This document shows, one piece after another, positions 27,590-31,229 of a stretch of DNA of 64,000 nucleotides. The DNA lies in NCBI RefSeq assembly GCF_000243235.1, contig NZ_JH594606.1:3042255-3106254 (forward strand). Direction: 5' to 3'. The notes below the pieces were generated by a model. That model was given only the letters and a program-made list of their open reading frames with translations. It had not been told where the DNA came from and did no database searches. Position 1 is the first letter of the stretch; the number at the start of each line of letters is the position of its first letter. This DNA is from Gillisia limnaea DSM 15749 (GTDB lineage Bacteria > Bacteroidota > Bacteroidia > Flavobacteriales > Flavobacteriaceae). Position numbers and translations under genes: made by a program.

Positions 27590-27710
27590 TCCCCCCGATG
27601 TGCCGGACCGTCCTGTTCGGGCGGGATTTTATCGAAATCCTGCATATATCTTCTTTTAATATAGCTCCTGAGCTTGCTCCGAGTCGATTTAATATCCGGG
27701 GTTTCAAATA
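27590..27710 (+). repeat. Degenerate dispersed repeat, copy C
   Basis: The best preserved of the three copies: it starts CCCCCCGATGTGCCGGACC, contains CGGGCGGGATTTTATCGAAA, then CTTCTTTTAATATAGCTCC and GAGCTTGCTCCGAGTCGATT. It reads as GRDFIEIL...SSFNIAPELAPSR in one frame. It lies 20 bases after the GSCFA gene. See copies A (5248) and B (9055). Confidence 0.6.
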
Positions 27711-27789: not shown

Positions 27790-28232
27790 ACAAGAAAAAT
27801 TGACGGCCAGACCGTCTATTACGATATTTTTTCTTAAAATTTTAGGTTGATAATTTTCACAATTATTTATAGGTCAGATATTTACGTTTTTAAAAATATA
27901 ATTATAATACCATTAGTTTACCTTTAATGCTAAAATTTAAATAAAACTAAACTTGGAATTATTAACAAATTGTTTATAAGTTAGGTGTATAAGGGAGGAA
28001 AATTATACAATATGAATAATTAAATGTGTTTAAATGCGTATTGTTTATTATTTTTGGATTTTATTATATTTTTAATATAATAATGTATTTACTGTTAATG
28101 TATGTTAATGTTCATATTTTGGCAAAATAATTGATAAAATGAAATGTATAAGTGTTATGCGTACTATTATGTATTATTTAAAATATGTAAAAATTTGTTG
28201 CACGTGAAGAATTTTTTTGTACATTTAAACTT
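27790..28232. other. Very AT-rich gene-free stretch
   Basis: Apart from GACGG-CCAGA-CCGTC near 27803, a weak hairpin, this 440-bp stretch is almost entirely A and T, with repeated TATTA/TAATG words (28030-28190) and no open frame of coding character. It precedes RNA element 1. It may act as an UP-type promoter region or a site for a nucleoid protein. No origin-type boxes were recognised. Confidence 0.5.
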
Positions 28233-28362
28233 GTTATGAAACTATAAGCAAAATCAATTAGTTGGATTTGAATAAAAGTCATAACAAAGTTTCTAAAATT
28301 TGTTGGGGTAGATTTTAGAAGAAATGACAAATGGACGGGTGGGGCCGTCCATTTGTGCGTTT
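28233..28362 (+). ncRNA. Putative structured small RNA, element 1
   Basis: Two hairpins with a defined order. The first, 28291-28320, has stem TTCTAAAAT/ATTTTAGAA and a 12-base loop TTGTTGGGGTAG. The second, 28327-28356, has stem ACAAATGGACG/CGTCCATTTGT and loop GGTGGGGC, followed by a short T tract, like an intrinsic terminator. A promoter-like TTTG (28194) and TACATTTA (28220) would start transcription near 28233; this 5' end is a guess. A paralogous element lies at 29327. No ORF is present. It may be one of the known Flavobacteria intergenic RNA motifs; I cannot name it. Confidence 0.6.
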
Positions 28363-28416
28363 TAAAGTTAAGGTTTTCATCAATTCTTTTAAACTTTCAC
28401 CTTTTATTTGAATTCG

Positions 28417-28424
28417 TATCTTTG
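28417..28424 (+). promoter_or_regulatory. -7 box of the DUF4230 gene
   Basis: TATCTTTG is an exact TAnnTTTG match, 16 bases before the ATG, implying a very short leader. The DUF4230 gene thus probably has its own promoter downstream of RNA element 1. Confidence 0.5.
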
Positions 28425-28439
28425 CTTAAAATTTGAACT

Positions 28440-29054
28440 ATGAGGAAGCTTCTTCCTGTTGTTCTTTTGGGCTTAGTGATCTTTTTTGCCTGGAAGTATT
28501 TTGAGAATAAAAGTATAGAAAGGGATCGGCTTGAGGAAAGTACGGACCTCATCCAGAAACAGATAAGAAACGTTGGAAAGCTTGTAGTTACAGAAGGTAA
28601 TTTTGCTCAGGTATTTTCTTATAATGACTCTAAAAAGTTTTATCTGGATGTTTTTTCAGCTAGAAAAAAGGCGCTTATTATCGTTAATGCAGATGTAACT
28701 GTGGCTTACGATTTAAGTAAACTAAAAACCCGGGTAAATCCGGAAACCAAAACGGTAACCATTACTTACATTCCTGAGGAGGAGATTTCAATCAATCCTA
28801 ATATCCAGTATTATGATGTTACCCAGGATTATTTAAACCAGTTTGAAGCCAAAGATTATAATAAAATTCAGGAACGAATTAAAAAATCATTGATGGGTAA
28901 GATCGAAAATTCCTCTTTAAAGTCCAATGCAAAAAACCGATTGATAAGCGAGCTTCAAAAAATTTATATTCTTACAAATTCTATGGGATGGACCCTTGAA
29001 TATGAAGGCAATCAAATTGAGAGTTCAGACGCATTGGAATCGATCAAACTATAA
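28440..29054 (+). CDS. DUF4230 domain protein
   Basis: 204 residues. One N-terminal membrane helix (LLPVVLLGLVIFFAWKYF), then the DUF4230 domain: VVTEGNFAQVFSYNDSKKFY, KALIIVNADVTVAYDLSKLK, VTITYIPEEEISINPNIQYY, DVTQDYLNQFEAKDYNKI. An anchored protein facing the periplasm, of unknown function. It stands alone between two paralogous RNA elements. Confidence 0.88.
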   Translation: MRKLLPVVLLGLVIFFAWKYFENKSIERDRLEESTDLIQKQIRNVGKLVVTEGNFAQVFSYNDSKKFYLDVFSARKKALIIVNADVTVAYDLSKLKTRVNPETKTVTITYIPEEEISINPNIQYYDVTQDYLNQFEAKDYNKIQERIKKSLMGKIENSSLKSNAKNRLISELQKIYILTNSMGWTLEYEGNQIESSDALESIKL

Positions 29055-29326
29055 TTCTGGTTTGGTTCTATTAATTTCCTGCCAGTCTTATATATTTTTC
29101 TTAGAAAAGCGCATTTGCTGAGAATTCAATTAAGTGACCTTTTTGCACTTAAATTGATAATAACGCTTATAATCATATAATATTTAACAGTATTATTTCT
29201 AGAGTATTTAAATTAACACGGAATTTACATTAAAATAATTTCAATTGAGTTCAATTATTTCCGAATTTATTTATTTTTATACCGATTCTAAAGTATCATT
29301 ATATGATTATTGGTTTTATTTGAGAA

Positions 29327-29408
29327 TCAGTTTTCTGAAATTTATTGGGGTAGATTTTAGAATTAAAAAGTAAATGGACGGGTGGGGCCGTCCATTTACT
29401 TTTTTTTA
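29327..29408 (+). ncRNA. Putative structured small RNA, element 2 (paralogue of element 1)
   Basis: The same two-hairpin arrangement as at 28291. Hairpin 1, 29333-29362: TTCTGAAAT/ATTTTAGAA (one G-U pair) with a 12-base loop TTATTGGGGTAG. Hairpin 2, 29365-29404: a 16-bp stem AAAAAGTAAATGGACG/CGTCCATTTACTTTTT with the identical loop GGTGGGGC, running into T. Relative to element 1, the lower stem changes on both sides together (CA/TG to GT/AC type), so pairing is preserved. The 5' end is not defined; the AT-rich 29055-29326 region upstream holds no gene and presumably the promoter. Confidence 0.62.
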
Positions 29409-29471
29409 TTTTTAGGTTTTTCTTCCTGATTTTATCCGTTTAATAAACCAGTAGTTATTACCGGTTAGAAA

Positions 29472-31229
29472 TTAATGGGTTAGTAATTTGGATTCTATCA
29501 TTTCAATCCCGCCATATATTAAATGGGCTATTTTGGGCCGTGAAGCTTTTACCCTACTCAGATGTTCTTTTATTTCGGTTGCAAATTTTGGATCCCTGTC
29601 TGCTACCAATTCATAGACTTCTATGGCAAGCAGCCAGTCCTTTGGGTGGTGTTTTTTTGCAATATCAAAAGCAGCTTGCAGGGAGAACTTTGTATTCTCT
29701 CCATTTCGGATATTTTTTACCGAAAGATATAGTGATTCCAATTCTTCCTTTTCTGCAGTTTTCTTACTTTTAATAGTTGTACTTGAAGGCTTATGGGTAA
29801 TCAAGTCAAAGGATTTAGGATCTGCAGGTCCTGCAAATGCTGAAATGATAGATTTCCCAATCGCCATATCATAGTTTCCCCATTCGGGTTTAAATAAAAT
29901 TTCGTCCTTGTACTGCACTGTGCAGTTTTTAAGACTTATCAAAATGATTTTTCCCTGCAGGTTTCTGCTTCCGGTAATTATCTCTCCTTTTACTGTCACG
30001 CCCCCTTCAAATTCAAAAGTGATATTCTCTCCTTCGTAGATGTCGTAAGCGCGTAAATCCCGCGGGCTCATATCTTCTATTGAGAGGTTGATCCCTTTAA
30101 GTTTGCCAAGAGGAGAACCAAAACCATCCGGATGATTATGAATACCGTGCCCTACAAGCTCTTTTTCCCGGGAAGAAAGTGCGGTTTTTCCTTTAGTTTG
30201 AAAATAAACAGGATGACCATGGTCTATCAGGACTCTTGAGAATTCCCCGGATATTTGTATTCCTGTACTCAACTCTATAGTGCCTAGATTTTTTGAATTA
30301 ACGAGTTTTTGAAGTCCTTCCAATCCACCGGTTCGCAAGGCCATTGTATTGGCGAATTCTTCCAGAACCAGGCTTAAATGGGCAAAATCCGGAGTGACAT
30401 ATAATTGCGGTTGTGGTTTTGTAATGTCAAAATCCTGTGTTGATGCCTCCAGGGTATAAGGGATTTTCTTAACTTTATTTGTCATGCACCATGCGCTTTC
30501 CCCTATAGAAGACAGTAAGCCGGCTCCATAAATTTTTGGATCATCAAGAGTTCCAATCAAACCATATTCCACCGTCCACCAGTGGAGATTTCTAATTTGA
30601 GCCATCTCACTTTGTTCTCCCATGTTATTCTGAAGAAAATCGACTCTTTCTTCAGCTTTGCTTATCTCTTCATCCGGTGTATCTTCAGCCTCCTTTATTA
30701 TGGATAAATGCCTGATGGCTTCATACATCTCATAATCTCTTGCGCTGGAAATTGCTTTGCAGCCTATCTCTCCAAATCTCCGCAGATATTCGGCGTATTC
30801 AGGGTTAGCGATAATAGGAGCGTGTCCTGCGCCTTCATGAATAATATCCGGGGCAGGTGTATATTCAATATGATCCAACTGTCGAATATCACTTGCTATA
30901 ACTAAAACATTATACGCCTGAAATTCCATAAATGCTGCCGGCGGAATAAAACCGTCAACCGCTACAGCTGACCAGCCAATTTCTTTTAAAATTCGGTTCA
31001 TCCCATACATATTGGGGATGCTGTCAATGGAAATTCCTGTTTGTTTTAGCCCTTCTAAATAAGACTTATGTGCCACCTTGCTCAGGTACTCCACATTTTT
31101 GCGCATTACATAGCGCCAAACGGCCTGATTTATGGCGTTGTACTCGTCGTAATTTTGCGGTTTGATGAATTGTTTTAAATGGGCTGGCAGCCTGTCTAAA
31201 ATTTCATTTGATTCTATATTTTCTAACAT
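29472..31229 (-). CDS. Biopterin-dependent aromatic amino acid hydroxylase (phenylalanine 4-monooxygenase)
   Basis: 585 residues. The catalytic domain in the first 320 residues shows iron ligands His131 and His136 in HEGAGHAPIIANPEYAEYL and Glu221 in WWTVEYGLIG, with TPAPDIIHEG before. A C-terminal part of about 260 residues (GIQISGEFSRVLIDHGHPVY, SREKELVGHGIHNHPDGFGS) is much longer than in the small proteobacterial PhhA. The Bacteroidota form commonly has such an extension. It converts phenylalanine to tyrosine using tetrahydrobiopterin. It has no pterin recycling gene beside it. Confidence 0.9.
   Translation of the reverse strand: MLENIESNEILDRLPAHLKQFIKPQNYDEYNAINQAVWRYVMRKNVEYLSKVAHKSYLEGLKQTGISIDSIPNMYGMNRILKEIGWSAVAVDGFIPPAAFMEFQAYNVLVIASDIRQLDHIEYTPAPDIIHEGAGHAPIIANPEYAEYLRRFGEIGCKAISSARDYEMYEAIRHLSIIKEAEDTPDEEISKAEERVDFLQNNMGEQSEMAQIRNLHWWTVEYGLIGTLDDPKIYGAGLLSSIGESAWCMTNKVKKIPYTLEASTQDFDITKPQPQLYVTPDFAHLSLVLEEFANTMALRTGGLEGLQKLVNSKNLGTIELSTGIQISGEFSRVLIDHGHPVYFQTKGKTALSSREKELVGHGIHNHPDGFGSPLGKLKGINLSIEDMSPRDLRAYDIYEGENITFEFEGGVTVKGEIITGSRNLQGKIILISLKNCTVQYKDEILFKPEWGNYDMAIGKSIISAFAGPADPKSFDLITHKPSSTTIKSKKTAEKEELESLYLSVKNIRNGENTKFSLQAAFDIAKKHHPKDWLLAIEVYELVADRDPKFATEIKEHLSRVKASRPKIAHLIYGGIEMIESKLLTH

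Follow-up and report, generated by a model that had tools for sequence, protein, structure and literature searches.

The closest described systems are outlined first. LhrC of Listeria monocytogenes is a multicopy small RNA in which UCCC, present in an internal loop, in a linker and in the terminator loop, provides redundant contact sites; its stem A opens upon binding, and the UCCC pairs with the G-rich Shine-Dalgarno region (PMC4132741). In Helicobacter pylori, the C/U-rich terminator loop of RepG binds a G-repeat (PMC8295292). FopS is a Bacteroides member of a paralogous sRNA family, and such a family is bound by RbpB, an RRM protein of that genus (PMC11697453). Among flavobacteria, Rfp18 of Flavobacterium psychrophilum is a strongly structured sRNA with several mRNAs as predicted pairing partners of its third stem-loop (PMC9723704), and Flavo-1 is an RNA motif whose function is not known (PMC2864571).

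The predicted RNA described here lies, in two copies, in a 64,000-nucleotide stretch of the genome of Gillisia limnaea DSM 15749 (the window). It resembles LhrC in having several gene copies and one short motif shared by an internal loop and the terminator loop; the motif is GGGG against the UCCC of LhrC, i.e. of complementary polarity, and the likeness drawn here is one of design. As in RepG, the terminator loop would make a contact of homopolymer type, with a G-rich loop in the window's RNA and a C/U-rich one in RepG. Like FopS it belongs to a paralogous sRNA family of Bacteroidota, and like Flavo-1 it is flavobacterial and without known function. Rfp18, compared by description and not by sequence, is also flavobacterial and strongly structured; of the studied flavobacterial sRNAs that we found it comes nearest, and it might belong to a wider family of G-loop RNAs. 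No description of the window's RNA was found in the titles and abstract openings of the open-licence literature or in the available parts of PMC11697453, PMC9723704, PMC2864571 and PMC7247131.

A covariance search against Rfam 15, which a preliminary description of the locus had proposed, returned no family at gathering score for either copy or for the elements of relatives that were scanned. The same description had offered Flavo-1 or a new motif as possible identities; the second is borne out as far as Rfam 15 goes, while Flavo-1 (RF01705) is not among the matches with E<=10 in 28000-29600. FopS (RF04319), whose gathering score is 56, scored 20.6 bits on copy 2, and the source genome has no FopS match over the cut-off. 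For the ohsC RNA (RF02495; gathering score 50) copy 2 gave 31.9 bits and the opposite strand 25 bits; both families were rejected.

Features of the two RNA copies and their surroundings in the window
Feature	Position	Strand	Basis
Terminator-like hairpins after the GSCFA gene	27608-27643		
Copy 1, promoter-like -7 box TACATTTA, preceded by TTTTTTTG	28220-28227	+	sequence; alignment with relatives
Copy 1, hairpin 1, arms TTGTTATGA / TCATAACAA	28231-28287	+	folds; arm-pairing test
Copy 1, hairpin 2, loop TTGTTGGGGTAG	28291-28320	+	fold, alignment, covariation
Copy 1, hairpin 3, terminator-like, loop GTGGGG within GGACGGGTGGGGCCGTCC, then GCGTTTT	28327-28356	+	fold, covariation
Separate promoter-like box TATCTTTG, 3' of copy 1 and 5' of DUF4230	28417-28424	+	by eye
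DUF4230 gene, between the RNA copies	28440-29054	+	Pfam PF14014, E 1.1e-23
Copy 2, promoter-like box TATTTTTA	29272-29279	+	sequence, by eye
Copy 2, hairpin 1, arms CCGATTCT / AGAATCAG	29282-29330	+	folds
Copy 2, hairpin 2, loop TTATTGGGGTAG	29333-29362	+	fold, model R3 match
Copy 2, hairpin 3, terminator with T-run, loop GTGGGG	~29366-29404	+	fold, R3, terminator scan
Small SRP RNA, Rfam RF04183	39872-39978		103.8 bits

Each unit consists of a promoter-like box, a 5' hairpin, a near-invariant hairpin 2 with the loop UUGUUGGGGUAG, and a terminator-like hairpin with the loop GUGGGG, and would yield an RNA of ~130 nt with three hairpins. The unit begins ~55 bases further upstream than the preliminary description had placed it, because the 5' hairpin and the promoter-like box belong to it. 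The paired hairpins proposed at both sites do fold as claimed: minimum free energies are -33.3 and -34.7 kcal/mol for copies 1 and 2 (z -6.92 and -6.41), and 0 of 200 dinucleotide shuffles matched the native stability of either copy. The box of copy 1 is presumably of the Bacteroidota TAnnTTTG promoter type; a G precedes it, and is absent before the box of copy 2. A sigma-70 scan is ill-suited to the promoters of this phylum, and nothing was drawn from its output. The terminator scan listed hairpin 3 of copy 2 on the + strand, with 17 pairs counted, and hairpin 3 of copy 1 on the - strand only, because its + strand tail is a weak GCGTTTT.

The two copies differ in ways that preserve their pairing, as had been noted before. 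In hairpin 2 a stem A>G change turns an A-U into a G-U pair and a loop-adjacent G becomes A; in the terminator stem two neighbouring pairs are changed on both sides (A-U/G-C and C-G/U-A). The hairpin 2 loop is almost the same in both copies, and the upper terminator stem with its loop, GGACGGGTGGGGCCGTCC, has the same letters. A search of the source genome gave two strong matches to the RNA. On the window, model R3 (see below) matched copies 1 and 2 on the + strand, and two weaker matches, of 32.8 and 25.2 bits, fall on the reverse strand at the copy sites, the former at the terminator of copy 2.

Of 15 relatives of the same genus, 14 carry the exact loop pattern, once each; none of 44 relatives further away has it. 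When 84,980 species were scanned, each represented by one genome, 40 stretches came up, of which 38 belong to four flavobacterial genera, Gillisia, Christiangramia/Gramella, Salegentibacter and Zunongwangia. The two unrelated stretches, one alphaproteobacterial (L061) and one planctomycete (L078), have none of the neighbour genes and were dropped as chance matches. A GSCFA gene lies upstream on the same strand at 36 of the 38 loci, the remaining two beginning too near to tell, and DUF4230 lies downstream at 35. Two further loci end too near, and in Zunongwangia pacifica (L085) the RNA is intact and a large unrelated reading frame is next to it in place of DUF4230. The preliminary description had the copies flanking DUF4230, which holds in the window but not in the relatives, where the upstream copy alone recurs. 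Copy 2, which is 3' of DUF4230 and faces the 3' end of a Biopterin_H gene on the opposite strand, was found in the window's genome only: inspection by eye revealed none in 8 named Gillisia loci, and model R2 detected no counterpart in the relatives' loci searched. At L058 and L073 a hairpin with ACCCCTATCAA / TTGATAGGGG is present in the gap between DUF4230 and phhA, where the window has copy 2.

Alignment with related genomes, suggested earlier as a check, shows the hairpins to be conserved in the four genera. Across 44 sequences, 34 of them distinct, standard pairs occupy 98.9% of pair cells, and the terminator stem carries double changes at 6 of its 12 pairs. In hairpin 2, 8 of 12 pairs are invariant, 4 vary on one side and none has double changes. 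None of 500 shuffles scored as high for cells paired, double-change cells or the covariation score, and 3 and 12 of 500 did so for the two remaining measures. Hairpin 2 is therefore held by sequence and the lower terminator stem by structure. The arms of hairpin 1 were compared in 43 of the 44 sequences (L064 was omitted, as it was from the -7 box set), with shuffles that preserve single-base composition only. Pairing with the own 3' arm averages -10.9 kcal/mol against -6.0 kcal/mol with foreign 3' arms, and a mean of 11% of foreign 3' arms pair as well as the own one; the sequence of hairpin 1 is free to drift and its structure is kept.

A box TAnnTT(T/C)A, mostly preceded by TTTTG, lies 73-102 bases 5' of the first TGGGG in the relatives, and its conservation is partly by construction because the box was located with a pattern, one that favours a G directly before it. 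Likewise, the loop invariance in the species-wide set is partly due to selection, because the search pattern itself contained part of each loop; evidence free of this selection comes from the flanking bases, from the family search with model R1 and from the paralogs. A coding sequence was rejected, as the spacer between hairpins 2 and 3 varies by single bases and the Zunongwangia loop has one additional base. The earlier view of a conserved, non-coding, paralogous structured RNA is thus upheld by the relatives, by compensatory changes, by indels of lengths not divisible by three and by extra paralogs.

These paralogs came from two covariance models, R2 built from the 44 aligned sequences and R3 additionally including paralogs; the structure in alignment A6 was assigned manually, and hairpin 2 is not perfectly aligned there. 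R2 revealed four further members in the Gillisia genome G010, one of them ~350 bases 5' of the main copy, a divergent member in G011, the relative without the exact loop pattern, and upstream tandem members at L021 (G013), L011 (G002) and, weakly, L070 (G007). With R3, at least one member was found in all 16 Gillisia genomes searched. The LhrC-like combination of GGGG in both loops with several gene copies occurs in 6 of the 16, namely the source genome, G002, G006, G007, G010 and G013 (more than one copy at >=43 bits). The other 10, together with five genomes of three sister genera, gave a single copy at >=40 bits, and multicopy redundancy is therefore not general. The paralogs of G002, G007, G010, G011 and G013 and one G209 member were used to train R3 and match it by construction; what R3 added is a second locus in each of G002 (579975), G006 and G209, together with the elements of G383, G433, G264 and G418. 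Stems differ among the Gillisia paralogs, while the hairpin 2 loop is UGGGG (AGGGG in two members) and the hairpin 3 loop is GUGGGG, UGGGGG, UUGGGG or similar.

A second subfamily, with 8 elements in 5 genomes of the genera g191 and g246 (two each in G209, G264 and G418, one each in G383 and G433), possesses the near-invariant hairpin GTAGGT(A/T)AATTGTT(C/T)GTGGGGAACAATTTAAAT. Its terminator stem varies, GGGAAG/CTTCCC versus GGATGG/CCATCC, around a constant UGGGG loop whose final G is able to pair in predicted folds. The first member found scored 41.8 bits with R1 and 39.7 bits with R2, models that hold no such member; R1 did not reach the elements of G383 and G433, and R3, with one such member among its sequences, brought in the others. 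Among 394 further genomes sampled across the class, some from the same family, the sole match at E<=0.001 had 36.8 bits (L300), and matches above ~40 bits therefore look specific. The R1, second-subfamily and class-wide searches, each over more than 40 genomes, were made with stricter filters and scored no more than 12 candidates per genome. R3 matches below 39 bits (L243-L248, L251) resemble ordinary terminators and were rejected. Two loci may be remote relatives: L249 (G278) has a TTTGGGGGAG loop on a AGGTCTAAAAT stem and a different terminator loop, and L250 (G262) has CATAAGTAG in common and a GGATGGTGGGGCCATCC terminator. Both common descent and convergence could account for the two subfamilies. 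Since two GGGG loops are kept on different stems in the paralogs and the second subfamily, the loops are the constant part of the design.

What emerges is a real predicted small RNA family, of a known kind and absent from Rfam, whose twin G-loop design is unusual and which is duplicated in the window. Our analysis favours, at about even probability, an independent trans-acting sRNA with two redundant G-rich loops that most likely acts by base-pairing, as a mirror image of LhrC. Each copy would be a small RNA gene of its own, with its promoter, hairpin 1, hairpin 2 and terminator hairpin. Hairpin 1, free in sequence, may serve for protection or spacing, and hairpins 2 and 3 would each expose a GGGG loop, usually UGGGG. 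Either loop could make the first contact, antisense and in trans, with a C-rich stretch of the CCCCA type in target mRNAs, after which the hairpin 2 stem might open and lengthen the duplex; translation or stability of the target mRNA would change as a result. The two loops, and the extra gene copies in some species, would provide redundancy and dose.

That the G-rich loops could pair with C-rich targets had been suggested before; this is plausible, but our searches found no target. After removal of self-matches, exact antisense 10-11-mers in 10 genomes numbered 29 for loop 1 against 18 in the reversed control, and 18 for loop 2 against 49, one of those 18 being itself a paralog (L162/L196). 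Among 59 of 66 loop-complement matches inspected (30 of 37 and 29 of 29), none lies convincingly at a start codon; a frame of at least 60 aa starts within 120 bases downstream at 5 of the 59 loci, and all five are enclosed by longer frames on the opposite strand. The gene starts of 107 ortholog pairs shared no antisense 7-mer in a comparison that was underpowered. These null results count against the pairing reading, as do the weak + strand terminator tail of copy 1 and the fact that multicopy is not general. So does the shortness of the GGGG seed, which need not fix the whole hairpin 2 stem; the invariance of hairpin 2 exceeds what a seed needs, and recognition by a protein also fits it.

The main rival, possible though on balance doubtful, is a protein sponge, in which the two GGGG loops bind an RNA-binding protein and the RNA titrates it. 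The presence of one short motif in two adjacent hairpin loops, on stems that otherwise vary in the paralogs, agrees with this, as do the almost unchanged hairpin 2, stem included, of the four genera, the failure of the antisense searches to find a target, and the binding of a paralogous sRNA family by RbpB in Bacteroides (PMC11697453). It is harder to reconcile with a binding site inside a terminator hairpin, which would be unusual, and with the number of sites, as typical protein sponges have more than two. The model for such a sponge is found in RsmY, RsmZ and CsrB, whose GGA loops bind CsrA/RsmA. We know of no G-loop-binding protein in Bacteroidota, which also weighs against it. A flavobacterial counterpart of the CsrA/Rsm systems, with twin GGGG hairpins that are multicopy in some genomes, that titrate a G-loop-binding regulator and that are kept in both subfamilies for the display of the site, is a tentative and rather speculative proposal. 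Alternatively, the RNA might be a decoy whose G-rich loops pair with a second small RNA, or with a terminator, that has a C-rich loop, and so neutralise this partner. The source genome does hold a terminator-like hairpin (L153, G000:C2 ~1423388) whose loop is a perfect 10-base complement of the hairpin 3 loop, but among 10 genomes such a C-loop hairpin was seen in the source genome only, and we regard the decoy as unlikely.

An element acting only in cis, as terminator of GSCFA or attenuator of DUF4230, is suggested by the constant site just 5' of DUF4230 on the same strand, and is in our view improbable. Termination would not require hairpins 1 and 2, and other terminator-like hairpins follow GSCFA. 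Moreover, a separate promoter-like box stands between the hairpin and DUF4230, copy 2 is not 5' of DUF4230, paralogs are placed at other genome sites, and in L085 the RNA is intact without an adjoining DUF4230. These positions argue for an independent transcription unit, and DUF4230 is probably a neighbour and not part of the mechanism of the RNA. That the element is a chance or functionless mobile repeat is scarcely credible: copy 2 is indeed found in a single genome, but synteny, covariation and near-invariant loops over four genera speak against it, as does the lack of any type I exact-pattern match in viral contigs. Carriage by phages was rejected as well, as none of the 4 viral loci given by the type II pattern matched model R3.

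The region between GSCFA and DUF4230 was also viewed in 30 DUF4230 loci, from the source genome and 29 other genomes of the family. At six of them (L091, L111, L113, L116, L118, L119) there is no room for the RNA, because GSCFA ends less than 100 bases before DUF4230. Loci of other genera (L098-L101, L103-L110, L114) contain a different candidate small RNA up to 603 bases upstream of the DUF4230 start. It has the 5' motif GCTATTA(A/T)TC in 9 of the 30 loci and a terminator-like hairpin CATTRGTT..TCGAAG in 10, is present as two tandem units in L108, and has no Rfam match at gathering score.

Small-RNA regulation in Bacteroidota outside Bacteroides is, to our knowledge, little studied. The phylum uses little Shine-Dalgarno pairing, and the C-rich-loop strategy of other phyla would therefore not serve it. 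A conserved RNA whose internal and terminator loops are, conversely, rich in G gives a handle on the RNA or protein that reads such loops. The RNA is compact and is found in culturable marine genera, which makes it amenable to deletion and pull-down.
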